Part shown: positions 20,394 through 53,468 of the stretch, piece after piece | Layout of the letters: each line of letters begins with the position of its first letter | Numbering within the stretch: the stretch's first letter is position 1 | Origin: Fistulifera solaris | Lineage: Eukaryota; Bacillariophyta; Bacillariophyceae; Naviculales; Stauroneidaceae | Direction of reading: 5' to 3' | Length of the DNA: 64,000 bases | Assembly (NCBI GenBank): GCA_030295235.1 | Contig: AP026150.1 | Span: 1 to 64,000 of the forward strand | The notes under the pieces: generated by a model | Told to the model about the DNA's origin: nothing | What the model saw: only the letters and a program-made list of their open reading frames with translations | Database searches by the model: none | Position numbers and translations under genes: made by a program

Positions 20394-23300
20394 TTACGCA
20401 AGCGACTGAAATAAATCGCTTGCAGAAAAGAGATCCGTGAAGCCGTCTCCGCTTGCGATGTGTCGATTGGGAAGGCAGTAATCTAAATCGGCTTCCGAGC
20501 TCACTCCCATCCACTCAACAACCCCATTCCACACAGAATCCCAACTGGTGGTAGGAATAATGCGTCCGCGACCGATATTCAGAGGACTGCTTGCCGTAAT
20601 ATCCGAAGGATATTCACCCAATATATTTCCTCCTTTCACATCACCGCCAATAATCCAGTAATGACCTCCCCAAGCGTGGTCGGATCCGGCTCCACTGTTA
20701 CTCGTTATCGTTCTAGCGAAATCAGACGTGACTACAAGAGTTACCTTGTCCCAGACGTTCTTGGCTTTTAATTCTTGTACGAGACAACGCAACGCATCAT
20801 TGAGTTCGAGCAACTTGGTGCGCAAGTTCAGTTTCATTTGATCGTGATGATCCCAACCGGCAATGTCCGTGAAGAAAACTTCACGATTCTTTTGACGTGC
20901 CTGGCGACTGAGAATGAATTTCGAGATCATGGCCATCTTTTCGGAAGTACTGCCCGGAAGCGCGGGCCAGTGGCTTTCCAAAACCGCCGCATCGATTTGC
21001 GCTTTCATCTTGCTGGCTTCCCGGGCACCTTTGACTATTTGTTCGGACCAGGTTTGACCAAACAAGGAACTATGCAAGTGGCTGACAGAATTGAACTCTT
21101 CAACGTGAGATTGAAGGTTGAATGTCTCGACGCTGGGTCGGCGATCGAAAACTGTGGGGCCTTTACGACTGGCTATAACCGGACGCGGCTGTTCGCCCCG
21201 GATCGATTCTGTTACGACGGAGGCTTTGTCGATTGAAATGGAACTCGCTGCAAAGCCTCGATCGGTCAATCGCGACACAAGGCGGCCCAATACACCGGAA
21301 CCGGCGGCCTTATTATGGGGATCTACCGCTTGTGTCGCCCTGGTCATGGCATTGTGAGCAAAGAGACCTATTTTGGTGCGAAAAATGTAATCCTTGCGGT
21401 CAACACCGGCTTGGTCGATCATTCCGGTGTTTGCGAAAAACGTCAGATCGCCATCGTCGTACAGTTCTTTTAACAGGGTCAATTCATCGTGCAAGGCGAA
21501 TTGACTGCACGGCTGTCCCCACTGGGCGTCGACGTCAATGAGCAGCGTCCTTTCGGCTTCCGTAAAAGCCAAATCGCCTCGTTCGGTGGTATACTGGTCG
21601 CGCAACGATGTCCCGGCGGCATTGGCTCCGGTACAGGTGTGAGGAACCAAGACGTTGAACGAATCGTACCCTCCTTCAAGAAGCAAAAAGATAACGGCTT
21701 TGTAGTCGTCTCCGCTGACGGAGGATGACGGTGGAGCTTCCGGTGGAAAAATTCGATTGGTATTTCGCGAAACGGCATTCGTATGGAATTCCGGTGTCGA
21801 AAGAATGACCTCCTGAATTTGAATCATTGCTTGCTGTGGGTTCGATTGTGCAAGAATATCGTCGTAAATTTCAATTAACCTATTTCGCTTGGTTGTTTCC
21901 GACAACAAGCGGCCGGAGGTCAACAAAATAGCGATCTCATCAATGATTTCGGAGGATGAGTCCAGTGCTAGTGAAGGTGAATACGTTAGGTGACCTCGTC
22001 CGTACGTGGAATCGCCGAGCACGCGCAGACGCTCGTTTGTGCTACGACCAATTCCGAAGCCTTCATAAGCATTGTCGAGTCCGTATTTTAGCAGACTGTT
22101 CATTCCGTTGGAAAGAGCCACAGCATTGGGACCGTTAACGACCATGCACTCGGGACAAACGAGTCCGGCGTTGCCAACAGGACCTACATTTCAGATAATG
22201 CGAGAAGGAGATGAGACAAAAACAAACCAGATGATCTTTTTTTCCTCCGTAAAGCTTACCAGAAGGTATGTACTCGGGTAAGAAGAAGGAGAATACATTG
22301 GGAACCTTGTGCGGTTGTTGACCAATCTTGTCCTGCAGATCCACTCCCAAGCGAATAAGGGGGTCAGTCAGGTCAGCTTCAAATTCAAGCGAGCGCAAAA
22401 GTCGGACGAACTTGCCGATTGGCTCTAAGATCGAACCGTGCGCTGGGTCTTTGTCTAGCACAAATGAACGACTTTCCCGGTCCAGTAACAGAGCAGCAAC
22501 CATGGCACCCAAGTCTCCATAACGTCCCGTTCCGAACGAGACGATCTTGTTGGTTGCGCCAAAGGTCTCGTATTTGCCTTGGCGGAATGCCGTTGCAATA
22601 ACGGAAATTAGGCGTGGCGAAGGATTGGAGTTGCCAAATCGCTGGCAAAAACGAATTGCAAGGAATGGGGCAACATTTTGGTGGTACTATAGAGGTAACG
22701 CAATTGAGTTCGACTCATGATCGTCACATTGTGGCAAACAATGGTACGCGCTCGCTAAACTTACGAAATAGTGATCGAGCCCTGCATCAGTCTCGTATGT
22801 GGCATCACGAACCTCTGGATAGCTGAGAGAAATGAAATGCGGTGGGTTGCGAAATGAAAGAGGCATGCTACCGTTTCCTAAAGTGACTATCGAGCGAACG
22901 TTTTTTCGGTACTGACGGATTCCGTTGTCATCCACAACTTCGAATATTGTTGCTTCCGTGTATTGGCCGTCTTTGCTGTGCATGATAACTCCACCGCCTA
23001 AGTTCGTTTTGGTTAGTTGGCCGTTTTCAGGGACGAAGGCCCCGATGAATAGTTGCTCAAGCACCTGTCCGCGTGTTGGCTTTGTTCGGAAAACAACTTC
23101 TTCGGATACATTTGTCGGACAAACACAGAGATTATCCGAAAAGTCTCTTGTACAGCCCAGATTGGCGCATGAATTTTCGTACGACTGTAAAAAGTTTTCG
23201 ACACCGTTGAACCATTCCACGCGGAAATATGTTTTGCTGTCCTCGCGTACGGTGTTTAAGATGCGATTCGGGTCGGTAACGCCAGCGGCTTTGTGCACAA

Positions 23301-26300
23301 TAGCTACTTTCCCCTCGATGTTTATCTTTGCCATCGGATCGCAGGTTCGCTTTGTCCAGAATCCGAGATTGATATCACACGTACTGCAACTCCACCAGGG
23401 ATCGTCACAGAGACCCAGATTCATGGCGGAGCATCTTTGGCTTGCTGTTGAAGATTTTACGATTTCCCCGGCGAATTTTACGGAACTGACGTCTGCACGG
23501 TTAGATCCGCTTCGGCAGCAGCCGACCGTTCCCGCTTCAAGTCTTGGATTGCTGCAAAAGTACCTTCCTGATATTGTTTTGAGCGTTACGCCGTTCTCGT
23601 AAAAGCTCTGCTCGACACACGCTGGTCTCGTGTATTCATAGTACAACCCAGCCTCAACTTCAACGATGCGAGGGGAATCAACCTCGCATTCTCTTCCGCT
23701 GCATGTCAAGGTCTCATCAAGCTCGACAACTCCTTGGTACGTGCATGTTCCGGTACTATCGGCATTACATATTGCAGCAAATAGAGGCGACGAGCTGGAT
23801 AGACGCAATCGTTGAACAGAATGATCCGTGATCCATGCTGAGTTTTGTCCCAGCAACCTTGGTCTAGGCACGGTTCCCAGGAGACGATACTGTGCTCCTT
23901 TGCGCAAAAAGTGCCTTGGTGGTAGATCGGAGCATAGCGGGTAATGATCTCCAACATATTGTCCATTCAGACCCATCTGGAACGAACAAGAATTAGTTTC
24001 GAAAAGGTTAGGGATCCGATGCGGCAGTAAAGCGTTCGGACGTACCTTCGGCGAGAAATCTCGCTTCTGTATTTCAATGCGCATGGGATCAATATCATTT
24101 CTCCCCACAGTCTCAATATTTCCTCTTCTTGGTTGTCGAGTGAAACCCGTGTACAGTCGGGCGTATTCTGTGATGTCGTCGTTCGTGTAAGTTGCAATAG
24201 TATTGCCGCTTGCATCCCTTCGGACGGTCCCATCTTGATTCAATTGATGTAAACCGATCGAGAACAATTGAAGGATCTCGCGAGAAAAATTCTCATCGGC
24301 GAAGACCATGCGGCGGTTTCGCGAATATTCATAGTGGGTTGAAGATTTATCGCGAAAGGAGAGCATCTCACCCATCATAGGTGAGAAAGTGACCTCCTTT
24401 AGAATATCTCGGTAATTTCCAAAAGCATTGCGGACGAATATGTCGTAGTAATGCTACACAATGCAAGAGAAGCGAATAAGGGGAAATTTTGTTGCCGAGG
24501 AAGGGAGTTAAAGGTGAATAACTTACCAGAAAATGCTCTGTTCGACTGGGTGACTCAATTGAACCTGGAGCGACGACAAGAATTTGCGACAAAACCCATG
24601 CCACTTTCTGTCTTAACTGATCATCAGCTTTCACTGCCATTTCCAACCAGATACTCGTTCGCTGCCTCTCTAAGTCGGCTGCACTTGTCGTTCGGTGCCA
24701 CACTGTTTGGGCGTCGAACCCCCCACGAAAGATTGTGTTTCCTTTGACCGGATTAGTGGCTACCTCAAATGGGCTGCCGCAAACCAATTGTGATCCTTCC
24801 AAAGCTTCGCTTAACAATATGTCTTCAAATGATTCGGCAACGGCGGGATTAGCAAGAACTAAAACTGTGTCACCAAGTCGGCCTAGCTCCGTAAGCTTTG
24901 TTTCATAATTGCTGTACCATCGTGACATTTCATGCCATGAAGGGAAGCTCAGCGTATAATTCCCAATGAGAGCAAATTGCTTGATTGGAGCCGGTCCACC
25001 TGGATGTCCATCAACTTTCGTCCATGCGGTGAAGTCGAATACTTGATAATTGGAAGGATGAGTATTCTTCCAGCATTGATTAGTCTTGTCCCGCACTGCA
25101 AAGTCAAACAAGGACACGTCCGAGCTTTTGCAAGTAACACCTAAAGATGGAAAGATGATGTCTCGTAAGAACGGATGCGTGTCGCTCGACCTCGACAAAA
25201 TGTCTTGAAAGGCGTTGAGCGTTTCACTGCCGACTTTGGGTGCATCGCATTCAGTTCCAGCCACAAGAACCCACCGCGACGTTGAACCCGGGGGAGCAAG
25301 GTGGCGTGTAAGGAGCATTTTCTTGTCTCAAACCGGTCACTGCGTAAATATACCGCTCACTGGCCATGAGGACTTTTTCGAAGTTGGTAGTGCTTAGCTC
25401 CACTGTTTCACTGGTGAGAGTGTCTCCTACGCTGCATGCTGATGAAGCATTCGAAGCTGAGAGTCGACAAAATTGTTCGTTGTCGAAGCTCGGTTGGACT
25501 AAAGCGCAAGCAACTCTATAATTCTCGCGATATTGTGCGGTTGCCTGTACTAGATCACCAGCTCCGTTTTCAAGTGGTTGTGTCGGTGTATTTTCTCTTA
25601 ATACAAAGCGGCTATCGTGGATCCAGTATTCACCTTTGTAGGAACCTATAATCGTGATTGTGTTTTCCGTATTCATAGGAATCTCATTGCACGAAGCATC
25701 TGTCAACGGTTCGACAATCATCAGCTCCTGCGGAAAGGCGAAATTGAAGTTGTCCCATTCCACCGTGTAGTCATCCAACGTAAGAACTGGTCGATCTGGT
25801 AGTGTGGTTCCGTTGAAGAAAACAGCCGGTACGCCTATGCGTTTGACCGTGTCGAAAACATTTTCGCATCTGCTTGCAATCCTTAGCTGCAAAGAGGCGT
25901 CGATCGAATTAGTAGGGTGAGTGCACAGCTGATATTCGCCATCGACGAACTCTCGGCCACTGACACTTGCAGCTGCCAGCTTGGTCGTTTTCACAAGAGT
26001 TCGTTTCTGGCCATTGACGAGAAGGAGCTTGCCCTCTGGAACTGTACGAATCTCTACCATTGTATCTCGATCTTTATCACTAAATGCATACTTGCGATAG
26101 CGACTGCCAACTTGACACGGGTGTGTAGTACCCCCTTGGCCGGACGAGTAATCAAAGCGGTGATTCAATCGTTCTCGATAATACTGACGATGCGAAGAGA
26201 CTGGTTGCTCGAATGCCGATGATAGCCACTGAACCGGGTCTTTAAATTGCCACATCGACTCACGTGTAGGCCCAAAAGTCGCTTGTTCCAAGAATCGAGC

Positions 26301-26876
26301 CGCTTTCACTAACGGTGCTGGAGCTGCGCGTTCAAAAGCTACTACCTCGTAGCGATACGATCCATACTGAGCCTGGGCTTCGGCAGTGACGGAAGGAAGT
26401 TTGGTCGTACATTGATCGTTTTGGCAGTCGATTTTCAAGGAAGCGTAAGGACCTGGGTACGTTTCCCACGGATTGCCATCATAGGATCGTGCCATGGGAA
26501 TCCGTACGCCCGTTTCGGCGACGATCCATAGAGAGCAGAGAGTCGAATATGTGGCGCGGGGTTGAATGATCGGAAGAACGAGTGTCATCGTCTCGTTGAA
26601 ATCGGTGAGTGCGACTGCTTGGTCCGGTACGCATTGTACTTGTGAACGCTGATTTGGGGCAGTAGCACATGGGCCGCACAAATGATTGCTCCTCTCACGT
26701 CTCGCTACCAAAGGAGATAAAACACAAACATCTGTGTTGGTATTCAAATCGCACATGGCGATTCGATTCATTCGCGAAAACCTTCGAGGCTTGCCACAAA
26801 GTTGCGAACATCCTTGTGCTGTGCTGCCCAGAAACCTTGTTGCAAGAGCGAAAAGGAATAATATTCTCATTATCAT
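20394..26876 (-). CDS. Copy 2: secreted DUF1800 / cytochrome b5 / DUF1501 fusion (subfamily II)
   Basis: Exons 26876-24527, 24453-24046, 23976-22765, 22686-22260 and 22183-20394; 2,061 aa after one frame correction. Signal peptide MIMRILFLFALATRFLGSTAQ. In order: N-terminal Cys-bearing region; DUF1800 part 1 (AARFLEQATFGP); cytochrome b5-like domain (YQVFDFTAW, GHPGG, then FPSWH 24 residues after the first His); DUF1800 part 2 (LRQKVAWVLSQILV, DENFSREILQLFSIG); Cys-rich exon from MGLNGQYVGD; DUF1800 part 3 (HQNVAPFLAIRFCQRFG); DUF1501 (LLLEGGYDSFNVLVP, SDHAWGGHYWIIGGDVKGG). The conserved FGRT reads FART here. A single frame change lies in a run of five C (minus strand, 25290-25294), most simply one extra base. 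Intron positions differ from copies 1, 3, 4 and 5 and match copy 6. Confidence 0.9.
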
Positions 26877-29018
26877 TGTGACTAATTCGCCTCGACTTCT
26901 TCAAGGCGAATGATAGCTGTTTGGAAATCAGTTTTCTATTCCACTTTGCGGATTGTGTGTTGGCATTTTGATTTTTGGAGAAGGTTTCGCTGACTTCAAG
27001 CCGAAGTTTATGCTTTTTTGTTGGGACGCACCTATCCAGAAGTTATATGTAACGCTTAAAGTTAGGGCCTTTTTAGAAGTGTCATTTCGGGTTTGTCCGA
27101 GAGCAATGGATACGTGATGGAACACAGGTCACAGGTCACACTGGTCACAGTCCCCAGGCAAAGTGTACATTTTGCACTTGCGAAGGTGCACTATCACTTC
27201 CATTATCATACGATTGACGTACAGAGTACAGAGTAGAGAGTAGAGAGGGCTTTTTGGGAAATGGGGAGTTTTCCGCCTCCTCTATAACAGTATCTCTCTA
27301 GTTCCACAGGTCACAGGTTGCGGGTTGCGGGCCCATGTCTTGGGTTCGGCAACTGATCCATTAATCGATTCTAGTCGTAAGTCGTATTCTCTCTCTCGTT
27401 GATATTGTGTATTGTGACTAGAGGTCAAAGCCCAGAGCCTCTAGCGCTCCGACTCCGAGAGGCAACTGTGCACTGTACAAGTACCAGGTAATTGAGTTAG
27501 GTGTTGAGTGTTGAGTTACTCAACGTTGAGTTCCGGTGGTTGGTGATTGGGATCATTGGTCATTGTCGTTTATGTCAGTACGATCACTCTTGAAGTGAAT
27601 AATTCTACGGGGTAAAGAGACTTTTTTGATTCGTGAAAGAACACTGTGCCTGAAAAGTCTCTCAAAAAGATAATTTTACGCAAGTCTTATCTGTGTTCCG
27701 TCAACAGTCAATACTACCGTAATATCGCTTCGAAAGTAGACATGCCTCCCTAAAAGTGGTATAATAGATAATAGAGCGGAGTTTGTTCATGATCGACCTA
27801 TCAAGATCATTCCTTTCCCAGTGACGGAACCGACCACAACCCATCACGAAATCTCGAACATCGTGTTCGAGCCACACTGCTACCTCGCCGCTGTTTGATC
27901 TACTATACTGGAACCAAAATAGCTATGATCACTATGTTGTCCCCCAAACCTGGTGCCTTGTTGCCAGGGCGAAAAGAAATAATACTCTCATTGTCATTTT
28001 GATAATAAAGTCTTGTCTTTAAGGAATCCATTCACTATTGCGAAAGCGCAAGTCGGCTTATTCATTTGGCTGGAAATGAATTAGGCCAAAGGTTGTGTTT
28101 TGTGTTTGGCGCAAACACATCGGCTGCGCTATAAACTGCCTGTGTATAAAGTATTGATGGGATACAACGCTGTCTTTTTGCATGAAAAATGGCTAATTTC
28201 TGATCGCAAACTTTAATTTGGTAAAGTTATCCCTTGCGCAGACTGATTCTCACTAGATTGCAGCCAAAAAAACTAAAGGAGGATAAAGATTATAATGATC
28301 AGCAGTCTGTCGTTAATATGTGCGGGCGGCGAACAAAGTGAGGCGAAACTAAAATCGGTATTCGGTCTTTAAGTCAAATTCACTGAAAAATTAACGTTTT
28401 ACTATTTATTCCTAATTTCCGAAACCAAGGAAGATTCTTTAAGTACAAAGTACAGGTTTTCGTTGTCTTTGGTCAGACCCAAAGTCATTGGGAAACTGAA
28501 AAGTCATTGTGACTTTGTCATCATACTATGCGCTCTTGGGTCGTGGGGCACCTGTACGTTTGTAAGCACAAAAATTTTGCTGGGAGTGTTTACTACTATG
28601 CCCCCCTTCATTGGATGACTTTTTGACCTTTGTGACTTGAAGGATGAGGTCGGAGTACGATACATTTCCCCGCTACGTTTTTGCTTTCCGCATCGTTTCC
28701 TCAATCAACAACTTACGTGAGGATTATTATCGCCTCGAAAAGTCTCTTGAGAAGTTTCCAGCAAGATCAAAGACGAACTCCCTTTCATTCTCAACTCGAA
28801 GGCTACTCTATTGGTCCGCAAGAAAAGGTCCCTGGGCTCAGTCGCGGCAAGCATACTTTTCTCTTTTTGATTTTCGCGAATGCCCCTTCGTAAAAACTGA
28901 CTTTCACCACAATTATTATCTCGTGCAACAATTTCATAGCGCCTTGCTTTCGTAATATCTACTTCACAAGATGCCTATTCATAAACTCAATTATCATAAA
29001 GCGCCCGTCAACTCTGTC
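26877..29018. other. Divergent intergenic region between copies 2 and 3
   Basis: Two kilobases between head-to-head copies, presumably holding both promoters. It contains a relic of a copy-2-like gene start (27932-27997, listed separately) and many short direct duplications at 27.1-27.6 kb (for example GGTCACA twice near 27126, GAGTACA/GAGTAGA near 27223-27245, GGTTGCG twice near 27312). No other gene recognised. Confidence 0.5.
27932..27997 (-). pseudogene. Relic of a copy-2-type signal-peptide exon
   Basis: Minus strand from an ATG at 27997: MTMRVLFLFALATR, almost identical to the copy 2 start (MIMRILFLFALATR), followed by six unrelated residues and a TAG at 27932-27934. The flanking DNA upstream is also similar to the copy 2 leader. 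This is a truncated duplicate lying about 1.1 kb upstream of copy 2 in the same orientation. Confidence 0.75.
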
Positions 29019-32000
29019 ATGATGCTGAAACAAGGTATGTTTATGAATTCATTGTGTCGAGAAGGGAGCTGCTCTTACCTTTTGTTTGCAAAGTCTTCGT
29101 GCTACTTTGGCTCATCTTCTCCCAAAGTGCCGACGCTCGTCGGACACCCATCAGAGATTTTATGAGAAGAATCAGTGGGGAGATTTTTCCTGTCGGTTGG
29201 GCAGTACAGTTTCATTGACCACTTATCGAGAAACAACCGATATGCGACTTGTCAACACGAAGACATCACCATCCGAAGTGTGTGTGCTTTGGAGAATCAC
29301 TTCGACAGGTGCTCGTATCCCTGTGGGGCGTTCATACGATGGAAACGATTGGGAAGCACATAGTGGACCGTATGCGACGCAAAAATTCACCTGCAGTGGC
29401 ACCACTTGCACGACCAATCTCCCGGCCAAATCAGACACGGAGCGATACGAGTTGGTTTCTTACCAGCGAAGAGCACTCAGTAAAGACGAGACGGCGGCGC
29501 GATTTTTGGAGCAAACCACGTTTGGTCCTCGCCGTGACGAGATTCGCGCATTTCCGGATGCTACAACGCAAACTTTTATCCAGTGGATTTTGAACCAATC
29601 GAATCTGCCAATTACTTCCCACCGCGCTGAATATCGAAAGCGCCTCAATCATCGCTTCCCTGCTAGTGGGAAAACGCGAGTTGGTCGTGTGACTCATCCG
29701 TGCGAGGCAGGCACCCGTTATCGTCGGGCGGCGTTCACCGACAAAGATCGTGATGCTATGGTGGAAATCAAAACTTTGTCCTCAACACAGAAAGCCCTTT
29801 CGATCGACGGCAACCTACGCACAGTAATCAATGCAAATCAGCTTTACGCGAATGCCGTACAAACAAGTCAGCAACTAGCAGACGGGAAGTAAGTATGAAT
29901 CGATGTCTAGTCTATTCCAATTTATCACCATTCGAGCTCATCATGACATCTTTCATTCAACAGATATCTCATTTGCGATATAGTTGAACCACGGATCGGT
30001 GGACAACTTCCTCTACAGCACAATGGAGTTTGCGGAAATCTATTTGCCGATAGTACCGAAGTCGGAAATCCAGCCATTGCTTTGGATTCTTCAAGTGCAC
30101 TGACAGTTACCATTGTTGATCTCAGCAATAAAGTGAAGGTAGTGGACACTCAATATCACGATGCTGAGCAATCGCTTCTTGTAACAATTCCATTGAGTCA
30201 ATGTACCCAAGTCTCTCAAGAAAGTCATGTCTTCGGTTTTTACAACGGCAAATACTGGCTTCATGATCCCCGCTTAGTAGTCCAAGACAATACGGTGGAG
30301 AACCCGAACGCCGAAGTGTGTACTTCTGCTCCGCCAACCTTCCTGAACGAGGCATCGTGTGTCCTTGCTGAAACTACCCCTTGCGTTACCACAATTGATC
30401 TGTCGGACTTACCTTCGACGGTTGACTTGACGGTGTCTACATTGCAACAAGTTTACGAGGAAACCGGTAAACTGATGTATGCCGTCTCTGGGCTTCGAGG
30501 ACCGTGGGAGCCTCCCTGTAAAGCGGAAACATTTTCTCGATGGGTTGTTGTCGCAGACGATTGTACGGACGCAACAATCAAAGACGCCACTCGCTCTTTT
30601 CTCCAAAACTTGATGACACGTGCGAAAGATAAGCAAAGCAACCCTAACATCCTAGATATCTTTGCGCCCTTTGCCGGATGCGATGCCACTGACGTGAGCA
30701 AATCTGGCTATAAGATTTCTGCCAACGGAAAATGTTACAAGAACGTCCATCCAAATCACTGGCAGGTGTTTGATTTCACCAAGTGGGCCGATGAGCATCC
30801 AGGCGGGGCACCCGCAATCAAACAATTCGCTTTGAGTGGAACATTCATGTTAAACTTCCCGGACTGGCACACCATGGAGCGTTGGACCACTAACATGAAG
30901 CAATTTACAAACATTGGACGTTTTGGCGACACCGTAACGAACCATCCTGCTTTTAAAGTACCGCAATCTGCACCGATTGAAGGTGGGCTTGCGTTGGTAT
31001 GTGGCAGCCCTTTCGAAGTTGCCAACAATGCATCGCTAGCCGGTTCTTTGCTCGAGGGCGCATTCGATGTTATCACGACCGACAACCACACGACTTCAGA
31101 ATCGTCTCTGATGGAGCAGAACTTGATGATTTGGATGGATGTTGCGTTGTCGAGCAAGGATCAGTTGAGACAGCGTATTGCGTGGGCATTGAGTCAAATC
31201 CTGGTTATATCCCCATCTAGCATTGAAGCTTGGTACACAAATGAACTTTTCCTTACGTACTACGACATCTTTGTAAGACACGCCTTCGGGAACTACCGCG
31301 ATATCCTCAAAGAAGTTTCCTATTCTCCGGCAATGGCAGAAATGTTAAGCTATTTGTGGTCAGCCAGGTACGTTAGGGTTCGTGTTTGTCTCATGTGGGT
31401 TCCGGTTCATCTCGTCAAAAAAAACAGTGGCATCATTTCTAACCAATTCTTGCAATCCACAGTACCAATATAATTTTTGAATGGTCTCAGCTGTTGCAGT
31501 TTCCGGATGAGAACTTCGCTAGAGAAGTGATGCAGTTGTTCTCGATAGGGTTAACTCAACTCAACCAAGACGGAACCCCTCTGTTAGATGAAAACAAACT
31601 CCCCGTGCTGACCTATTCGAACGATGACATTATGGAGTACGCCAGAATGTGGACCGGATTCAAGCAACAGCCTCGTCGAAACAACGTTGAGGAGTTTCCC
31701 TCGCCCTGGACTGGAAGTCTTGTGGATCCTTTGATGATTGACATCCAACTCCGCGACAGCCTTCCTAAAGTAAGTTGATTGTCGTTTCAAATGTGTCAGC
31801 CGATATTCCATGAAGCCTGACAAAGCTCGCAGATGGGTTTGAATCGTGTTTATGTAGGTGACGGATACCCGTTGTGCGTAGACTTGCCAAGCCAGCACTT
31901 TCTCAAACGTGGGGCAACCTACAAATTGTTGGGCCCCAAACCAAATCCCCGACTTTTATCCGACCCCGAAAGCTGGACAGACTCCGAGACGACGAAGGGC

Positions 32001-35000
32001 ATCGCTCTGGACCAAAACTCCAATTTATACAAGGCACTATGCAACCTTTCGAGTGGGGTGTGTTCATATCCCGCGATGGTTGTCTTGCAGTCAAACATGG
32101 TTTGCACGGGAGTAGAGTGCGACATTGACGAACCCCGCATTGTGAAAGTAAGCGACATGTATTACGAGTATTCACGTTTCCCTTGTGTTGAACAATCGTT
32201 TTTCAGCAACCCGACAATGATGACCAACCAATGGGGATGGTCCTACTGTGCCGATCGACGTGCCGCAGCAGGTTCTCTTGTATGTTGCCCCAACGACTAT
32301 GGTGACGCCGACATCAGCTTCGTAAAATTCGATGGAGAAAAGTTAAAATTCGATCGAGCTGCAGCACGCTGCACGGCGAATGGCATGAAGCTGTGTGACA
32401 GTCCATGGTGGGATTGCAACGACTGCAACGAACAGCTTGGTTATTGGACAAGTCATTCCTGTAGCTTGGCTGTTAAAATACATCGCGACGGAAAAGTCGG
32501 GATTGTGCACGACGTCGTTGACATTGAGAAAATTTACAGAAGCGTGCATTACAATGTTGACAAACAAACAAAGACGTCATTTCGGGTGGACTGGCAAGGA
32601 CCACTAGATTCATTCCTAAGTTCGTACAACACTCAATGTGCTTCGTCAGGCTGCAAGTTAGATCCTCTGGAAAATCTATGCATATGTCCTGTCGCCGCAG
32701 TAACGAATAGTGCAGTGTTTAACAGCGCTCCAACGGTGAACCAAGTCCTTCGTCAATTGCCTATTGGATCGTTCGCGCCAGACATCTTGGCAGGAAGTTA
32801 TAGTGCGAGAGATGTTGGCAATGGCGTTCTGATGCATTCCACGGACGGTTTATTTTCGGCCAAATCCGTTTTCCAGGTAAAAGATTCCAATGGAGTTACA
32901 CATTTTCGAAAGAACGTCAAGTCGACCGTCACAGTGGGTTCAGGAGGGTTATCTTTCCGTAACCCACCCCACTTCATTTCGCTTGCGTTTCCCGAGGTCC
33001 GCGACGCCGTATACGAAACAGATGCCGGTCTTGATCACTATTTCGTAAGTATGAAAACGCCAATGCACATGGATCGTTCCTAACCACATTACTGACACAT
33101 CACCTCCCTTTTTTCCTTTAGTATCATCCTAACGTCGCTCCATTCCTAGCCTCACGAATGCTGCAACGATTCGGTCAATCTAATCCATCTCCCCGAATGA
33201 TTGCTACGGTTGCAAATGCGTTTCGAACCGGCGTTTACTCTGTGGGAGGTGTTAATCTTGGAAGCAAAAAGTACGGCGACATGTTTGCTATGATGGCTGC
33301 CATCCTACTTGATCGCGAATCTCGAGCTCCTATTCTTGATGCTGATCCTGTTTTTGGGTCACTCCAGGAACCGTTTCTCCGCTATGTTCGCACAATGAGG
33401 TCGCTCGAATTTACATCATCTCCCGATTCTCCCTTCGTTCGCTTCCAAGCGTATCTTCCTAATGATCTCGGCCAGCAACCGCACTCGCAACCAAATGTAT
33501 TCTCCTATTTCAAACCAGAATTCACTCCGGCCGGACCTGTTGGAAACGCCGGTCTTTATTGCCCGGAGTGTCAGCTTACCGACGGACCGAAGGCGATCAC
33601 ATTGATGAATGCGTTGAACAGTCTTCTCAAATACGGATTGAGCCCAGACTACGGCGGGTTCGGATACGGACGAGACCTTGAGCCAGTGAAGGGCGATTAC
33701 TCGAACTCGTTTGGACACTTGGCCTTGAAGCTGAGCGATTCAATGACTACAAGTCAGGTGGTAGACGAGCTCGCCTTGCTACTAACAGCTGGTAGATTGA
33801 GTGCTCAAAAGCGGACCATGATGGTGAATGTGTTCAACTCGCTCGTCTCAAGGGCACAAGGCATTATCACAGTCGAGCAAATGATGCTGACGACGCCCGA
33901 GTTTCACACTAATAGCTTATCTCAGAATGGCGGCGGTGCCGTCTCCCCACCTCCTACACCTTCGCTGAATACAAGGCCTTACAAAGCAGTGATTTACGTG
34001 ATGCTTTCGGGTGGATTAGACTCTTTCAACATGTTTGTTCCCCAAACTTGTACTGGGAAAAATAGTGATGGTGTCACTGTCAACCAACAATACATGACAG
34101 AGCGTGGGGAGTTAGCAATTCCACTTGGTGAGCGTTCCTTGCAAATCACTGCTACCGGTCAGCCGTGTTCGACTTTCGCTATTCACAAAGACCTGCCGCT
34201 CTTCCGAACTCTTTACAATGCGGGCGATTTGACGTTCTTTGCAAACACGGGAGTACTGAACGAAGTGAGCGGGATCGACAAAATTAATTACATGGCCAAG
34301 ACACGCGTTCAGCTCTTCGCTCACAACTGGATGCAACAGGAATCAAAAACGATGGACCCAAAGGCAGCCAAATATGGCACAGGCGTCCTTGGTCGACTGA
34401 GCTCAGCGTTGAACGACAAAGGATACACACCAGGATCTGTTTCGTTTGATCGAGAATCGATTTCCAACGCGCCAGAACGTACCAAAACACCCCGTCCGAT
34501 TGTTGTGAGTCCCTACGGTGTTAGCGAATTCGACATCAAACCTTGGGAAGAAAAGTTTGACTTGACGTCATATGCCAAGCAGCTGAACGCCAAGCCGAGC
34601 CCGGGTGACTCCTTGTTTGGTCAGACATGGTCGTCCAGATTCATAGATGGCATGAACGAGGCACAATTTTTCCAGGATAAGATTGAGCAAGCTCCTTTAG
34701 GTGGTCATTGGGGCTGGGATATGGGGCACATTGGATATCAGTTCCGCATGCTCTCCAAGCTCGTGAAAAGTCGCGGCGTGAGAGGTGTGGATCGCGATGT
34801 ATTCTACACCGAGTTCGGTGGCTGGGATCATCATGACAATCAAGTCTGGGGCTTGCAAAGCGGTTTCCAGGAATTGAATAAATCTCTGAACTTGCTCATT
34901 ACAGAACTCAAGCTCCAAAATGTCTGGAACGACGTGACGATTGTTCTTGCCTCTGAATTCGGGCGCACCCTTACGCCCAACTCGGGCGGTGGTTCCGATC

Positions 35001-35352
35001 ACGGTTGGGGAGGGCATTATGCGATTATGGGAGGTGATGTGAAAGGAGGAAAGGTTCTCGGTCTTTATCCTACCGACTTGACCGAGAAAGGACCGCTGAA
35101 TGTCGGACGTGGGCGTTTCATTCCTACGACAAGTTGGGATGCTGTATGGAACGGTATTGCGCAGTGGATGGGAATTACCACAGAAACTGAGCTTGATTAT
35201 TGCTTGCCGAATCGAAAGGCGACTTCCGGTGTAAATGGATTTACAAATCTCTTTTCGCGAAGCGATCTTTTCAATCCATTGCTCGACAAAGACATTTGCG
35301 TGAACGAAAAGCTGCTTCTGAGGAATCGGAAGAAATACAAACCGAGACTTAA
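29019..35352 (+). CDS. Copy 3: secreted DUF1800 / cytochrome b5 / DUF1501 fusion
   Basis: Exons 29019-29034, 29094-29888, 29964-31367, 31463-31769, 31833-33044 and 33122-35352; 1,988 aa. The signal peptide is split by a phase-1 intron (MMLKQ | VFVLLWLIFSQSADA). Approximate residues: DUF1800 part 1 138-200; cytochrome b5-like domain 525-575 (HWQVFDFTKW, HPGG, DWH 24 residues on); DUF1800 part 2 668-815; Cys-rich module 842-1245; DUF1800 part 3 1215-1310; DUF1501 1530-1960 (MLSGGLDSFNMFVP, ASEFGRTLTPN, SDHGWGGHYAIMGGDVKGG). Two one-base T-run deletions interrupt the frame: near 29172-29176 (between signal peptide and body) and near 35267-35270. The second makes the open frame run on to 35398, whereas the frame shared with copy 4 ends in TAA at 35350-35352. 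An extra intron at 31368-31462 is shared only with copy 5. Confidence 0.9.
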
Positions 35353-39852: not shown

Positions 39853-42800
39853 ATGATGAAAACAGGTAAGTCAACGAAGCGATTCTCTCTTTTTCAACGA
39901 ATTTTGTTCTCATAATGACATCACTACGCAGTCCTTTTATTATTATGGCTTCTTGCCGACCACACTGCCGAGGCTCAATTCCTTGCCAACTTGTTTCAAC
40001 GAAATCGAACGACGACCACCACCACCACTTCGTTCGCTTGTCAGTTGAGTAAAACCGTGCCATTGACCACGTACAAAGAAACGACCGATTTGCGACTCGC
40101 CAACACCAAAGTATCGGTCAACGAAGTTTGTGTGCTCTGGCGCATTACTTCGACTGGTGTGCGCGTACCGGTGGCTCGTTCTTACAGTGGCAACAATTGG
40201 GAAGCCCAAAGTGGGCCGTATGCACGACAGAAGTTGACATGTAGCAGTGGTATTTGCACGACGCGCTTGCCGGCCCGTGCAGACACGCAACGTTACGAGT
40301 TGGTGTCGTATCAACGTCGAGTCCTCAGCAAAGATGAAACGGCGGCGCGTTTCTTAGAACAGACTACCTTTGGACCTCGACTCAGTGAGATCCGTGCCTT
40401 TCCGGATGTGACCACTCTTACATTTGCACAGTGGTTTCTGAATCAAGCCAATCTATCCATTACTTCGCATCGCGCGGAATTTCGAAAGCGTCTCAACCAT
40501 CGTTTCCCCTCCAGCGGAAACACAAGAGTCGGCCGTGTGACTCAGCCCTGCGAAGTCGGCACACGTTATCGTCGAGCAGCTTTCAGTGACAAAGATCAGG
40601 AAGCGATTGTTGAGATTCGTACGTTGTCGTCGACGCAGAAAGCCCTATCGATTGACGGAAAGTTACGCACGATAGTCAACGCGTCCCAGCTGTACTCCAA
40701 TGCCGTTCAGGCAGGTCAACAACTAGCGGACGGAAAGTAAGTATACGCTGTGTCTTTTGTCTTCGGGCGTTTCGATTATTGATAACTCAGTATTTGAACA
40801 TTACAGGTATCCCGTCTGTGACAAAGTCGAAACATGGATCGGAGGAAAGTTCCATTTGGTGCACAACGGTGTCTGCGGAAATCTATTCGCCGATAGCATC
40901 GCAGTGGGCAATCCAGCCGTGTCGCTGGACTCAGCTAGTGCATCGAAAGCCACAATTCTTGATTTAAGCAACAAGGTTCGGGTGGTGGATACTCAGTATT
41001 ATAATGCTGTGCAGGATCTTCTTGTCACAGCTCCTGTGAGTCCTTGTACGCAAGTGACTCAGGAGAGCCACATGTTTGGATTTTACGACGGAAAATATTG
41101 GCTTCATGATCCGCGCTTCGTGATCGACGAAAACACGTTGGACAAGCCAAACACGGAAGCGTGCACCTCCGCTCCGTCAACCTTCCTCAACGAGGATTCG
41201 TGCATCCTTGCCCAAACAACTCCATGTGGCACCTCAACTTCACCCACAACTGTAGACTTGGTATGTGGGAGTCCATTCGAAGTCGCGAACAACGCATCTT
41301 TGGCAGGTTCCTTAATTGGGGGAGCGTTTGACATTGTTACTTCTGAAAACAAGACCACACCTGAAAACGAACTCATGGATCAGAATCTCATGATTTGGAT
41401 GGATATTTCGCTTTCGAGTAAAGACCAATTGAGGCAGCGAATTGCTTGGGCCTTGAGTCAAATTCTGGTTGTGTCTCCGTATGCAGTCGAAGCCTGGTAT
41501 ACAAATGAAGTTTTCCTCACGTACTACGACATCTTTGTGAGGCACGCTTTTGGAAATTACCGTGACATCCTCAAAGAAGTCTCTTACAGTCCCGCAATGG
41601 CACAGATGCTGAGCTACGACGGCAGCAAAAGCACAGCACTCGTCTACTATCAGAGTCAACGCATGGAGTATCCTGATGAGAACTTTTCTCGCGAAGTAAT
41701 GCAATTGTTTAGCATCAGCACGCATCAGTTGAACCAGGATGGTACCCCTATACTGGATGGAACCAATCACCCTGTATTAAGTTACACGAACGACGACATC
41801 ATGGAATATGCTAGGATGTGGACCGGTTTCAAGCCACAGCCTCGTCGAAACAACGTAGAGGATTTCCCGTCACCTTGGAGAGGCAGTCCTGTCGATCCCA
41901 TGATGATCGAAGCCGAAGCAAGAGACAGTTTGCCAAAGGTATGTTGATTGTGTTTCCAATATTTTCACCCTTATGCTTGATTTGCGAACAACAAACACTT
42001 AAAAAAATTTTGTTTCAATCCCTTGCAGATGGGTCTGAACCGTACATATGTTGGAGACGGATATCCGCTGTGCTCCGACTTGCCTAACCAGCACTTTCTC
42101 AAGCGTGGGGCAACCTACCGGCTGTTGGGGCCAAAGCCCCAGCCCCGTCTGTTGAACGACCCTAAGAGCTGGACCGACTCGACGACGACGAAGCGCTTTT
42201 CACTAGATAAAACCTCCAGCCTCTACCAAGCACTCTGCAAAGCGTCTGGTGGCGTATGTTCTTATCCTGTAAAAGTTGTATTACAGACAAATATTGCCTG
42301 CACTGGAGTCGAGTGTGAGATCGACGAACCCCGTGTCATAGAAGTAAGCGGCATGTACTACGAGTATACGCGTTTGCCGTGTGTCCAACAAGCATTTTTC
42401 AACAATCCGGCAATAATGGTAAACCAGTGGGGATGGACCGTTTGCGCAGATAGACGTACGGCTGCAGCATCACTTGCTTGCTGTCCCACTAGTACTGGCA
42501 AAGCAAACACCACTTTGGTCAAGTTCGCCGGCGAGAAATTGACATTCGATAGGTCTATGGCTCGCTGCAAGGCCAACGGCATGGTCACATGCGACGTGGC
42601 CTGGTGGGATTGCAACGGTTGTAACACGCAGCTGGGACACTGGACAACCCAATCATGCAATTTGGTAGTAAAAGTACATCGTGATGGGAAAATCGGAATC
42701 GTACACGAAGCTCCGGAAAGCTGGCCAGGTGGAAGCAAAAATATGTACTATAATGTCAAAAGAGACACGAAGACATCATTCCGAGTAGACTGGCAAGGGC

Positions 42801-45563
42801 CGCTGAGTACGCTACTTGGTTCGTACAACACTCAATGTGCTACCATGGGATGCAAAATGGACACAACCGAGAATGTTTGTCTTTGTCCTGTTGCCTCTGT
42901 GGCGGATAGTCCCGTTTTCACCAGCGCTCCAACAGTGACTCAAGTCCTTCACCAGTTACCCATAGGATCCTTTTCTCCTGACATTCTAACAGGAACTTAT
43001 AGCGCACGGGATCTTGGCAATGGGGTTCTTATGTACTCAACAGACGGGTTGTTTTCTGCAAGATCCGTTTTCCAGGTCAAAGATGCCAATGGAGTAACAC
43101 ACTTCCGAAAAAACATCAAGTCGACTGTGACAATTGGGTCTGGAACGCTCTCTTTCCGAAACCCGCCTCATTTCGTATCGCTCGCTTTCCCCGAGGCCCG
43201 TGATGCTGCTTATGAGACAGATGCCGGACTGGATCACTATTTTGTAAGTCGAACACATTGTTTCGCATCGTCAAGATCGTAACCGTTCGGAAACTGATCA
43301 TGCACCACTCACGTGTCCTGTTAATTTGCTTGCAGTATCATCCAAACACTGCGCCTTTCCTGGCTTCAAGAATGCTGCAGCGTTTCGGTCTATCCAATCC
43401 TTCCCCTCGCATGATCTCAACTGTTGCGAATGCGTTTCGAACAGGCGTTTACGTCGCAGGTGGAGTGACTCTAGGTAGCAAAAGTATGGCGACATGTTCG
43501 CCATGATGGCTGCCATTGTGCTCGATCGTGAGTCTCGTGCTCCGATTCTAGATGCAGACCCTGTTTCTGGATCACTCCAGGAACCGTTTCTCCGCTATGT
43601 TCGCACCATGAGGTCGCTCGAGTTCAAGCGTTCTCCGGATGCTCCCTACATTCGCTTTAATACGTACTTTCCGAGCACCCTTGCACAGCAACCACATTTA
43701 CAAACAAGTGTATTCTCCTACTTCGCACCTGATTTCTCTCCTGCCGGACCTGTCGGAAATGCCGGTCTCTACTGCCCTGAGTGCGAGATCACCGACGGAC
43801 CGAAAGCAATCAACTTGATGAATGCTTTGAACAGTCTCCTCAAGTACGGATTGACTTCGTCCTACGGTGGATTCGGGCACGGACGGGGGCTCACACCTAG
43901 CAAGGGCAATTACACGAACTCGTTTGGTAACTTAGCTTTGCAGCTGAGTGACTCGTTGACGGCGGTTCAAATAGTGGACGAACTTGCCTTGCTGCTTACA
44001 GCTGGTAGATTGAGCGCTCAAAAACGGACCATGATGGTGAACGTGTTTAACTCGCAGGTTTCGAGGGCGCAAGGTATTATCACGGTCGAGCAATTGATGC
44101 TCACGACGCCCGAATTTCACACAAACACCTTATCCCATAACAATGCCGGTGCAGTCTCTCCGCCTCCTCTGCCGACACCCAATACAAAGCCGTACAAGGC
44201 AGTCATCTATGTGATGCTTTCGGGAGGTGTAGACTCATTCAACATGCTTGTTCCTCAAGTTTGTACTGGAACAAACAGTGCCGGAGTCACCGTCGATCAG
44301 CAATACAATGTGGAGCGTGGGAGTTTGGCTCTTCCCTCAGGCGAACGATCTTTGCAAATCACGACTACAAATCAACCTTGTTCGACATTCGCTATCCACA
44401 AAGAGCTGCCGCTGTTCAAGTCGTTGTATGATGCCGGCGATTTGACCTTTATCGCGAATATGGGAGTGCTGAATGATGTCACGGGAATCGACAAGGCCAA
44501 TTACATGGCCAAGACTCGAGTTCAACTCTTTGCTCACAACTGGATGACGCAGGAAGCAAAAACGATGGATCCCAAGGCCTCCAAGTTCGGCACCGGTGTC
44601 CTTGGTCGACTGAGCTCGGTGTTGAAAGATAAAGGGTACACACCAAGTTCGGTTTCATTCGATAGTGGATCGGTGGCCAATTCTCCGGAACGTAATAAGG
44701 CACCGAAACCAGTCGTCGTAAGTCCCTACGGAGTGAGCAAGTTTGACTCCAAACCGTGGGCCGATAAATTCGACTTGACGTCCTACGCTCGGCAGTTAAA
44801 TGCCAAGCCCAACTCCACCGATTCGTTCATTGGTCAGACCTGGTCCTCCCGCTTCATTGACGGAATCGATGAAGCTGAATTTTTCAAAAGCAAAGTCGAG
44901 CAAGCTCCTTTGGGAGGTCACTGGAACTGGGACATGGGTAATCTTGGCTATCAGTTCCGCATGCTTTCGAAGCTTATGAAAAGTCGCGACGTGAGGGGAG
45001 TCGATCGTGATGTGTTTTACACGGAGTTCGGCGGGTGGGATCACCATAATGGACAAGTCTCTGGTTTGCAAAACAAATTCAGGGAACTGAACAAGTCACT
45101 CGACTTGCTCATCACAGAATTGAAACTGCAAGGCGTCTGGAACGATGTGACGATCGTTATCGCCTCTGAATTCGGGCGCACCCTTACGCCGAATTCCGGT
45201 GGAGGTTCCGATCACGCTTGGGGAGGACATTATGCGATCATGGGAGGTGATGTGAAAGGAGGAAAGGTTCTCGGTCTCTATCCTACCGACTTGACCGAGA
45301 AAGGACCGCTGAATGTCGGCCGAGGCCGTTTTATTCCGACGACCAGTTGGGATGCTGTATGGAACGGTATTGCGCAGTGGATGGGAATCACCACAGAAAC
45401 TGAGCTTGATTATTGCTTGCCGAATCGAAAGGCGACTTCCGGTGTAAATGGATTTACAAATCTCTTTTCGCGAAGCGATCTTTTTCAATCCGTTGCTCGA
45501 AAAAGACATTTGCGTGAACGAAAAGCTGATCCTGATGCAGGAGAGGTCAATGTTCATTCATAA
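39853..45563 (+). CDS. Copy 4: secreted DUF1800 / DUF1501 fusion lacking the cytochrome b5 domain
   Basis: Exons 39853-39865, 39932-40736, 40807-41938, 42029-43243 and 43336-45563; 1,797 aa after restoring one base. The signal peptide is split by an intron (MMKT | VLLLLWLLADHTAEA). DUF1800 part 1 (AARFLEQTTFGPR), part 2 (LRQRIAWALSQILV, DENFSREVMQLFSI), the Cys-rich module (MGLNRTYVGDG), DUF1800 part 3 (HPNTAPFLASRMLQRFG) and DUF1501 (MLSGGVDSFNMLVP, ASEFGRTLTPN) are all present. Compared with copy 3, 189 codons are missing in frame between TVDL and VCGSPFEV (about 41261), exactly removing the haem domain. One A is missing from a run at 43480-43483 (four instead of five), shifting the frame. 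No intron interrupts the LSY-DENF region, unlike copies 3 and 5. Confidence 0.9.
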
Positions 45564-47197: not shown

Positions 47198-50100
47198 ATG
47201 ATGAAAAAAGGTGTGTCTTGCGTGTGTTACTGCTGTTTTATTGTCATTCCATCTCACAACATCTACTTGCAGCTCTTTCGTGGTTGCTGGTGCTATTGAT
47301 TGCCAAGGCGGATGCCCAAGTACAGGTGTTTTCTTGCCAGTTGAGTAAAACAGTTCCGTTAACCAACTATCGGGAAACGACGGATGTGAAATTGGTCAAT
47401 ACCAAAACATTGCCGTCGGAAGTCTGCGTGCTCTGGCGGATCACCTCGTCGGGGGCGCGTGTGCCGGTGGCTCGGTCGTACGATGGAAACAACTGGGAGG
47501 CGCACAGTGGAACGTATATGAAACAGAAGTTTACATGCGTGAGTGGCGTGTGCACGACGAAACTTCCGGCCAAGACGGATACGCAACGTTATGAGTTGGT
47601 TTCCTACCAACGCAGGGCGCTTAGCAAAGATTAAATGGCGGCCCGTTTCTTGGAGCAGACCACGTTTGGTCCTCGACTGGATGAGATTCGTGCCTTTCCG
47701 GATGCCACAACGCAAACTTTCGCTCGTTGGATTCAGAATCAAGCAGCATTGCCTATCACTTCGCATCGCGCGGAGTTCCGAAAGCGACTCAATCATCGCT
47801 TTCCTACCGGTGCGAAAACGACAGTTGGCCGAGTGACTCAGCCGTGTGAAGCTGGTACCCGCTATCGTCGTGCGGCTTTTACCGATAAAGATGTGGGAGC
47901 TTTTGTGGAAGTCCGAACGGTGTCTTCAAAGCAGAAAGCTCTTTCGATTGGAGGAAAGCTACGCACGGTGATCAATGCCAGTAAACTCTACGTCAACGCG
48001 GTTCAAACGAATCAGCAATTGGCGGATGGAAAGTGAGTAATGATTCTGTGCTTCTTTCGTTCTCAACTTTACTGGGTTTTCTAACTACTTTTTGGCATAG
48101 ATATCTCATTTGTGATCAAGTTGAAGCACGGCTTGGTGGGCAGTTTCGCTTGAAACACAATAACGTTTGCGGGAATTTCTTCGCTGACAGTCAAGTCGTG
48201 GGCAATCCTGCCATCAACCTGGACGCTTCCAGTGCAGCTACGGTCAAAATTCTTGATCTGAGTAACAAGGCCAAGGTGGTGGATATTCAGTACAATAAGG
48301 TGGCTCAGGATCTTCTTCTAACTGTCCCTTTGAGTCAGTGCTCTCAAGTTCCTCAAGATGGACACGTTTTCGGCATCTTCGATGGCAAGTACTGGCTCCA
48401 CGACCCGCGTTTCGTTGTCGACGAAAACTCTCTGGAGAAACCAAACAACGAAGTTTGCTCTTCTGCTCCTCCTACTTTTCTCAACGAAGCATCGTGCGTG
48501 ATATCTCAAACGACTCCATGTGTGACAACCTCAGCACCCTTGAGCGTGTCGTCAACAGTTCAGTTGACCATTGCCACGCTGCAACAAGCATATAAGGACA
48601 CGGGCAAGCTAATGTATGCTGTGTCTGGTTTGAGAGGCCCATGGGATCCTCCCTGTAAGGCTGGAAGTACTTCTCGTTGGGTTGTTGTCAATGTGGATTG
48701 TACGGACACCACAATGAAGGACTCGACTCGTACATTCCTCCAGAACTTGTTAGTAGAAGCCAAAGCGACGCAAAGCAATCCGTACATGCTCGATGTCTTC
48801 ATGCCATTTGCTGCTTGTGACGCAACTGACGCAAATGGGCTCTACTATAGGATTGCTGCCAACGGCAAGTGCTACGAGAACGTTCACCCAAATCACTGGC
48901 AGGTGTTTGATTTTACTGCATGGGCCAGTCAGCATCCTGGTGGGGCTCCAGCTATCGAGCAGTTTGCACTGAGTGGCGAATTTGTTCTCAACTTTCCGGA
49001 TTGGCACACAATGGATCGATGGACTACGTATTCGAAACAGTTGACGAGTATCGGACGTTTTGGCGACACAGTTCCTGCTTTTGGGGATCCGCAACCTGGT
49101 CCAATTGAGGGAGGGGTCTCGTTGGTTTGTGGGAGTCCTTTTGAAGTCGCGAACAATGCATCTTTGGCGGGTTCGTTGCTAGCAGGTGCTTTCGACATCG
49201 TCACTTCCGAAAGCAAAACAACACCAGAGTCAAGATTGATGGAGCAGAATTTGATGATATGGATGGATATTGCGTTGAAGAGCAAGGACCAACTGAGGCA
49301 GCGAATTGCTTGGGCATTGAGTCAGATTCTAGTTGTGGCCCCATACGCCCTTGAGTCATGGTATACCAATGAAGTGTTTCTGACGTACTATGACATCTTT
49401 GTGAGGCATGCATTTGGAAACTACCGCGACATTCTCAAGGAAGTGGCCTACTCCCCGGCGATGGCCGAGATGCTGAGCTATCTCAATAGCGAAAGGTAAA
49501 TGCTGATTTCCGTCCCGTTCCTTTTGCGTAAACAAGAACTCACGATCCCTTTTCATTGAACTGAGCATAGCACAGCAATCGTTTTTGAATACAAAAAGCA
49601 GTTTCAGTTTGCTGATGAGAACTTTTCTCGAGAAATAATGCAATTGTTTAGCATCGGCTTGTATCAGCTTAATCAAGACGGTTCTCTGCTGTTGAATGGA
49701 AACAACCTTCCTGTGCTGACTTATACGAACGATGACATCATGGAGTATGCCAGAATGTGGACCGGTTTTAAGCAACAGCCTCGTCGAAACAATATCGAAG
49801 ATTTTCCATCACCCTGGACCGGAAGTCTTGTCGACCCTATGATGATTCGAGTTGAAGCACGAGACAGTTTGCCAAAGGTGGGTAGATGATATCTTCTCTT
49901 TCTTCAATACGAGCCTGTCAAAAACTCAACATTCATTCATCTATTTAATTTCCAGATGGGTTTGAACCGTGCGTATGTCGGAGACGGATACCCCCTGTGC
50001 GCCGACTTGCCAAGCCAGCACTTTTTGAAGCGCGGAGCAACCTACCGATTGTTGGGACCGAAGCCCAAGCCCCGTCTGTTGAACGATCCTGATAGTTGGA

Positions 50101-53100: not shown

Positions 53101-53468
53101 CAGGCGGTGGATCGGACCATGCTTGGGGAGGACATTATGCGTTGATGGGAGGCGATGTCAAGGGAGGAAAGATTCTTGGCCAATATCCTACCGATTTGAC
53201 CGAGAAAGGACCATTGAACGTCGGCCGCGGGCGTTTCATTCCTACGACAAGTTGGGATGCTGTTTGGAACGGAATCTTGCAGTGGATGGGAATTAGTACG
53301 GAAGCAGAACTTGACTATTGCTTGCCAAATCGAAAGGCAACTTCCGGTGTAAGCGGCTTCACAAATCTGATGTGGCGAAGCGATCTTTTCCAATCCACTG
53401 GTCGTAACAGGCATTTGCGCGAGCGAGAAAAGGACTCTGTTCAACAGAAAGCAGAAAACATGATCTGA
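47198..53468 (+). CDS. Copy 5: secreted DUF1800 / cytochrome b5 / DUF1501 fusion with an internal TAA
   Basis: Exons 47198-47210, 47273-48032, 48101-49495, 49571-49877, 49956-51167 and 51240-53468 total exactly 1,972 codons with no frameshift. Signal peptide MMKK | ALSWLLVLLIAKADA, split by a 62-bp intron as in copies 3 and 4; in-frame ATGs at 47183, 47186 and 47192 are alternatives. All modules are intact: DUF1800 part 1, cytochrome b5-like domain (HWQVFDFTAW, HPGG, DWH at 24 residues), DUF1800 part 2, Cys-rich module, DUF1800 part 3 and DUF1501 (ASEFGRTLTPN, SDHAWGGHYALMGGDVKGG). The one defect is a TAA at 47632-47634 in place of the Glu codon of SKDETAARF, followed immediately by a new ATG where relatives have ACG. 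As read, translation stops after about 130 residues. Recently inactivated gene, allele, or base-call error. Confidence 0.88.

Follow-up and report, generated by a model that had tools for sequence, protein, structure and literature searches.

A fused DUF1800-DUF1501 gene with a nested cytochrome b5-type domain in the diatom Fistulifera solaris

The 64,000-nucleotide stretch of Fistulifera solaris DNA analysed here (contig AP026150.1, positions 1 to 64,000, hereafter the window) contains a gene, the third of six related copies, that codes for a DUF1800 domain cut into three pieces by two long insertions, the first of which ends in a cytochrome b5-type domain, followed by a DUF1501 domain. This nested and fused architecture is real at the sequence level and no earlier report of it was found in the literature searched; the component families are known, and the arrangement is new. 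Very little has been published on the bacterial families DUF1800 and DUF1501, for which the nested haem domain and the shared change in the DUF1501 pocket offer testable hints at their chemistry. The gene is also an apparent case of a bacterial operon turned into a single eukaryotic multidomain protein, maintained at nine pairs of loci. We tentatively favour, at a little less than an even chance, that its product is exported, carries haem and works on extracellular polysaccharide, and that it derives from a fused and invaded bacterial pair. The features of the focal gene are given below, with residues numbered along the joined exons (about 13 above the numbering of the initial annotation) and DUF1800 scores from a local hidden Markov model (HMM) built from 53 bacterial proteins.

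29019..29142, + strand: probable first exon or exons, coding for a signal-peptide-like stretch at 29019-29034 and from 29094 on (read by eye), out of frame with the body as assembled
From 29047, + strand: open frame of the gene body
29425..29655, + strand: DUF1800 piece 1, residues 127-203 (local HMM positions 47-120, 29 bits)
29656..31083, + strand: insert 1, residues 204-654, with intron A inside; an uncharacterised module of about 350 residues, then the b5-type domain
29889..29963, + strand: intron A, phase 2, GTAAGT..CAG, with a like intron in paralogues
30673..30963, + strand: cytochrome b5-type domain, axial-type His codons 30796-30798 (HPGG) and 30868-30870
31084..31856, + strand: DUF1800 piece 2, residues 655-859, with introns B and C inside (local HMM positions 125-320, 205 bits; also Pfam)
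31368..31462, + strand: intron B, GTACGT..CAG; donor 31368 preferred over 31395 by paralogue alignment
31770..31832, + strand: intron C, phase 0
31857..32990, + strand: insert 2, residues 860-1237, Cys-rich (18 Cys)
32991..33904, + strand: DUF1800 piece 3, residues 1238-1516, with intron D inside (local HMM positions 321-584, 172 bits; also Pfam)
33045..33121, + strand: intron D, phase 0
33968..35254, + strand: DUF1501 domain, approximate bounds, predicted alkaline-phosphatase-type fold
34319..34321, + strand: codon for Ala in place of the bacterial invariant Ser

The initial annotation had proposed that DUF1800 is present in three pieces in this order, and the pieces are indeed collinear with the local HMM (29, 205 and 172 bits), with DUF1501 coming after them. 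At the exon level, the Pfam DUF1800 family (PF08811, cut-off 26.1 bits) matches exon 2 (49.1 bits), exon 3 (45.5 bits) and exon 5 (60.6 bits); the ARFLEQTTFGP piece in exon 1 has no Pfam match and is matched by the local HMM only, so the expected order of DUF1800, b5 and DUF1501 holds with its first piece assigned by that model. The inserts fall at positions 120|125 (about 450 residues) and 320|321 (about 378 residues) of the local HMM. In an AlphaFold model of the intact DUF1800 protein of the bacterial locus L055 (mean predicted local distance difference test, pLDDT, of 74.3), the first site corresponds to residues 178-278, mostly with pLDDT below 50 and between two helices, and the second to 476|477, past a short strand and ahead of the helix 483-498. 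Both sites thus lie between secondary-structure elements, and this fits insertions that leave the DUF1800 fold unbroken, as read off the bacterial model.

The exon model was fixed by recurrent intron sites and paralogue alignment, and the joined exons (29047-29888, 29964-31367, 31463-31769, 31833-33044 and 33122-35395) read through 2013 residues, 44 of them Cys, without a stop. Introns of matching phase recur in several paralogues. Near 35269 the focal copy is without one base that its homoeologue carries, so its last ~25 residues are shifted, and for this reason the end of the gene is placed at 35352, in the reading frame of the relatives. At the other end, the homoeologue shares the frame offset of the signal-peptide-like stretch, because the two align without gaps from 29094 on; the first exon of the homoeologue is one base longer (frames read by eye). 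Hydrophobic N termini are in frame in several paralogues, also by eye, suggesting that the focal copy is secreted.

The 51.7-Mb assembly (61 contigs) holds 23 matches to silicon transporters (best E 3.5e-222) and 87 to light-harvesting proteins, as befits a diatom. Searches of it gave 40 exon-level matches to PF08811, 39 of them above the cut-off, which we grouped into 18 family loci forming nine homoeologous pairs, with six loci in the window. PF07394, the Pfam DUF1501 family, gave 18 matches, one per family locus and all above the cut-off, and the DUF1800-DUF1501 pieces are present at 18 of 18 loci. Within each of the nine pairs, identity over the best-aligned stretches is 89-97%, and the family copies on contigs C36 and C37 have the same order and orientation. 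All 18 copies form a single clade (FastTree support 1.0). The ratio of nonsynonymous to synonymous substitution rates (dN/dS) is 0.03-0.12 across the five homoeologous pairs tested, with 0.03 for focal exon 5, which points to strong constraint in these pairs. Frame breaks as assembled occur in copy 1 (3360-9652), at 47632 and in L015, L016, L017 and L018, and may be either assembly indels or early decay. The copies in the window are:

3360..9652, - strand: copy 1, bounds approximate, frame breaks as assembled
20397..26900, - strand: copy 2
29019..35352, + strand: copy 3, the focal gene, five main exons and a probable short upstream exon
39919..45560, + strand: copy 4, start approximate, without b5 domain
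47635..53465, + strand: copy 5, start unsettled, frame break at 47632 as assembled
58684..63999, - strand: copy 6, extending past the window edge

Each DUF domain keeps some of its conserved residues and has lost others. Among polar positions that do not vary in the bacterial relatives, those of the DUF1800 core at 229-278 (DEN, R, E, Q, Y, N, T) are kept in 16-18 of the 18 diatom copies, and N217, H307, Y364, R380 and N456 are mostly altered. DUF1501 is recognized by Pfam in exon 5 (95.7 bits, cut-off 27), the exon that also holds the third DUF1800 piece, and its fold is predicted to be of the alkaline-phosphatase type; among the matches listed, members of this superfamily (PafA, NPP and sulfatases) share 9-15% identity with it. 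The profile marks the domain as DUF1501, but its motif sets it apart from the bacterial type sampled: S-H-x-D, with a Ser that all 71 bacterial rows share, reads A-H-x-(W/A/H/G) in each of the 18 diatom copies. All 18 also lack the Asp found three columns past this Ser, and a nearby Trp is lost as well. The sulfatase- or phosphatase-like character first given to this domain is therefore kept for the predicted fold, while hydrolase activity becomes doubtful, since the invariant Ser is Ala and the neighbouring Asp and Trp are gone. A possible but unlikely alternative is that the fusion is an active extracellular phosphatase, phosphodiesterase or sulfatase, collecting phosphate or stripping sulfate through a DUF1501 metallo-hydrolase that uses another nucleophile (e.g., the Ser/Thr of GG-x-D-S/T), with b5 as an accessory. 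Besides the predicted fold and the low dN/dS of focal exon 5, it would agree with the retention of D87 in 16 of 16 aligning diatom copies, of H180, D346, H348, D402 and H403 in 18 of 18, and of GG-x-D-S in the four diatom copies of the DUF1501 alignment. Against it stand the altered S-H-x-D motif and, for a sulfatase, the lack in the focal protein of the formylglycine motif C-x-(P/A)-x-R after the first strand, the lone string of this form being CLPNR, near the C terminus.

The first gap in DUF1800 had been described as a b5-like haem domain, and the gap does contain a b5-type domain in which the two haem-ligand positions are present, preceded by about 350 residues of other, Cys-bearing sequence. 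The Cyt-b5 profile (PF00173) matches focal exon 2 with 22.7 bits, slightly below its cut-off of 23.7, and the segment alone with 25.1 bits, at profile positions 20-43 of 74. A motif search across the 18 copies yielded 15 b5 segments, and L015 was excluded from the alignment (frame break before the second His); all 14 aligned segments match PF00173 at E <=0.01. Both axial-type His positions are invariant in these 14 segments, together with two Cys, and HPGG is replaced by HAGG in one of them. The spacing between the two His is 24 residues in 13 segments, as in bovine cytochrome b5, and 23 in L016. The b5 profile also matches solved cytochromes b5 in the PDB (E 1e-4). The second His is assigned by position and spacing, because profile and structure matches mainly span the HPGG half, and from its ligand positions the segment would bind haem. 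In a single-protein search b5 sequence is found at 16 of 18 loci, in broken frames in copy 1 and only as far as the HPGG part at the L015 locus. Copy 4 (exon 40808-41938) and its homoeologue (C36:54799-55263) match only residues 1-159 of insert 1, so that the architecture ascribed to the focal gene and five relatives extends to six copies in the window with the exception of b5 in copy 4. Insert 2, with no Pfam match of its own, has 17 Cys invariant across 12 aligned copies, in agreement with the proposal that the second gap is Cys-rich. Genome searches with insert 1 plus b5 and with insert 2 each gave at least 24 matches, all inside the 18 loci.

The alteration of conserved motifs in both DUF domains, the 44 Cys of the joined protein, the loss of b5 in one homoeologous pair and the apparent lack of a second ligand in a b5 adjoining a chitin synthase (see below) are features that could also be expected of a structural matrix protein, in which neither DUF domain is catalytic, both being mere scaffolds, and b5 is a binding fold without electron transfer. 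This is about as improbable as an active hydrolase, given that a pure scaffold needs neither the two axial-type His that are invariant in 14 of 14 segments nor the bovine-like spacing found in 13. The redox or hydrolase function proposed in the initial annotation is a reasonable lead: the haem-ligand positions speak for it, and its hydrolase half is weakened because the conserved Ser is lost. It is very improbable that separate adjacent genes or a decaying pseudogene array mimic one fused gene: the frame breaks in several copies and the 5' and 3' frame discrepancies of the focal copy would suit such an artefact, but the presence of the pieces at 18 of 18 loci, the like-phase introns in several paralogues, the low dN/dS, the 2013-residue open reading over the joined exons and the sharing of exon 5 by DUF1800 piece 3 and DUF1501 all argue against it.

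As the initial annotation held, the fusion joins genes that are adjacent in bacteria. The bacterial sample comprised 80 genome loci, the best among 543 confirmed, plus six viral loci. In 75 of the 80 genome loci, DUF1501 is preceded by a DUF1800 open reading frame (ORF) of the same strand, within 130 bases in 71 and at 223-703 bases in four; L036, L059, L075 and L088 have no ORF in the searched stretch, and that of L094 has no DUF1800 match. No DUF1800-DUF1501 fusion occurs among the 86 DUF1501 ORFs of the genome and viral loci. The 53 proteins behind the local HMM belong to the 75 upstream proteins that it matched, 22 of which are independent; in an independent Pfam check, PF08811 matches 42 of 42 aligned upstream proteins and PF07394 matches all 42 DUF1501 proteins aligned, a set that includes four from the diatom. 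Nine of the 80 loci (L035, L036, L054, L059, L075, L082, L088, L094 and L099) were left out of trees and residue counts for being too short, without upstream ORF or without match. The two-domain FastTree tree (92 rows, three of them viral) places the diatoms beside L037, L055 and L063 (0.995) and then four other Opitutales-type loci (1.0), the same grouping receives support of 100 and 100 with IQ-TREE (89 rows, without the viral ones, which are also left out of the residue counts), and the DUF1800-only tree agrees in joining the diatoms with L037, L055 and L063 (0.991). A bacterial origin of the diatom pair is likely.

These three operons, of Opitutia/Kiritimatiellae, resemble the diatom gene in having PF08811 followed by PF07394, in DUF1800 parts that are sisters to those of the diatoms, and in an insert of 81-95 residues at the diatom insert-1 site that starts with a similar motif. 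They differ from it in being two separate genes with an intact S-H-x-D and no insert of at least 60 residues at the second site; the short insert of L055 is modelled with low confidence and has no HPGG by eye, unlike the b5-bearing insert of the diatoms. Bacterial DUF1501 proteins start with a twin-Arg motif in 70 of 70 rows, in contrast to the diatom fusion. A profile of diatom exon 2 matched 79 of 286 genomes of the class of L055, where the matches listed cover only the DUF1800 ends (model positions <=180 and >=613 of 722) and none of them shows insert 1 or b5. On the viral IMG/VR contigs L107, L108, L109 and L111, DUF1800 is also upstream of DUF1501, and in L109 the latter lies within an ORF of 1084 residues.

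The natural fusion strongly suggests that DUF1800 and DUF1501 act together. Under the reading as a secreted haem protein, a DUF1800-DUF1501 pair of Verrucomicrobiota type would have entered the diatom lineage and would have been fused with the operon order kept, and DUF1800 would have gained two insertions between secondary-structure elements, one ending in b5 and one Cys-rich. The product, presumably exported, would work in the extracellular coat or wall, where the Cys-rich and insert modules may bind matrix. The alkaline-phosphatase-type pocket of DUF1501 would hold a metal together with an ester- or sugar-linked ligand, with hydrolysis probably altered or lost, and the b5 haem could accept or hand on a single electron, possibly in concert with a partner oxidoreductase. 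Among targets, a beta-linked polysaccharide would be the most likely, for instance chitin or an exopolymer bearing sulfate. Within this scheme, the analysis establishes the order of the pieces, the conservation of the haem-ligand positions, the predicted fold class of DUF1501 and the constraint. Its fullest form, an extracellular diatom redox enzyme in which electrons passing through the nested b5 haem act on polysaccharide held by the remodelled alkaline-phosphatase-fold domain, is rather unlikely; if true, the widespread bacterial DUF1800/DUF1501 pairs would in general be surface machinery for glycan processing, operating together with an electron carrier.

Four indirect lines point toward polysaccharide: bacterial operons, a third gene, the b5 domains of Thalassiosira and the adjacency of b5 and chitin synthase. 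DUF1800/DUF1501 genes are found in bacterial chitin-synthase operons (PMC5122149), that is, the same pair of families tied to a polysaccharide synthase; they are separate genes there, whereas the diatom chitin synthase matches lie on other contigs. In L055 (7816-8565), L063 (4175-4924) and L037 (7932-8702), the pair is followed by a third, secreted-looking gene of about 250 residues. By a text test, the gene that comes next carries a PEP tail in five of 80 loci (L036, L054, L055, L063 and L082), and the third gene of L037 has a PEP-CTERM-like motif slightly further in. Thalassiosira chitin synthases bear b5 domains (PMC10134812), again linking a b5-type domain to polysaccharide synthesis, in a membrane enzyme of another family whose domain list, as given there, is without DUF1800 and DUF1501. 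In the F. solaris genome, one homoeologous pair, L023 (1510-3496) and L024, has a b5 ORF immediately before a chitin synthase ORF of the same orientation. The chitin synthase pair L021/L022 has no b5 in the one ORF scanned at each locus, and two further pairs are outside the scan.

Several observations weigh against a secreted haem protein acting on polysaccharide. No chitin synthase matches are found on C36 or C37, the b5 beside the chitin synthase of L023/L024 seems to be without the second His by our own count, and the third-gene proteins (four scanned) show no Pfam family above the curated cut-off. The signal-peptide-like stretch of the focal copy is out of frame with the body as assembled. 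The Pfam and PDB matches to b5 mostly cover the HPGG half, and copy 4 and its homoeologue have lost b5 with the rest of the family layout kept. In DUF1501, the Ser and Asp of S-H-x-D are gone from every copy, and in DUF1800, His307 has become Arg or Lys in all eight aligned diatom copies; these changes speak against an ordinary hydrolase. The 50 Foldseek matches listed for DUF1501 have low TM-scores (0.26-0.41, with root-mean-square deviations of 9.6-18.3), and the DUF1501-only tree joins the diatoms not with their DUF1800 sisters but with L086 (0.80), three Verrucomicrobia coming next (0.98).

Related arrangements are known in other organisms. PSCyt/PSD proteins of planctomycetes also have a haem domain fused to uncharacterized proteins, some with carbohydrate-binding modules, and differ in that the haem domain is cytochrome c instead of b5 (PMC5615132); in a profile comparison, 14 PSD1-type proteins showed no relation to DUF1800. 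Emiliania huxleyi has 10 DUF1800 genes, two of which belong to the set that goes up in calcium-induced calcification (PMC7563939), and therefore DUF1800 is not restricted to diatoms among algae.

Among the bacterial DUF1800 proteins, three of 42 carry TSP3 repeats and one of 42 a Calx-beta domain, both extracellular calcium-type modules. In the remainder of the window, two weak matches below the curated cut-offs lie on the reverse strand, one to a polyprenyl synthetase (2057-2812, 22.2 bits) and the other to the Dictyostelium CTDC repeat (17907-18428, 26.9 bits).
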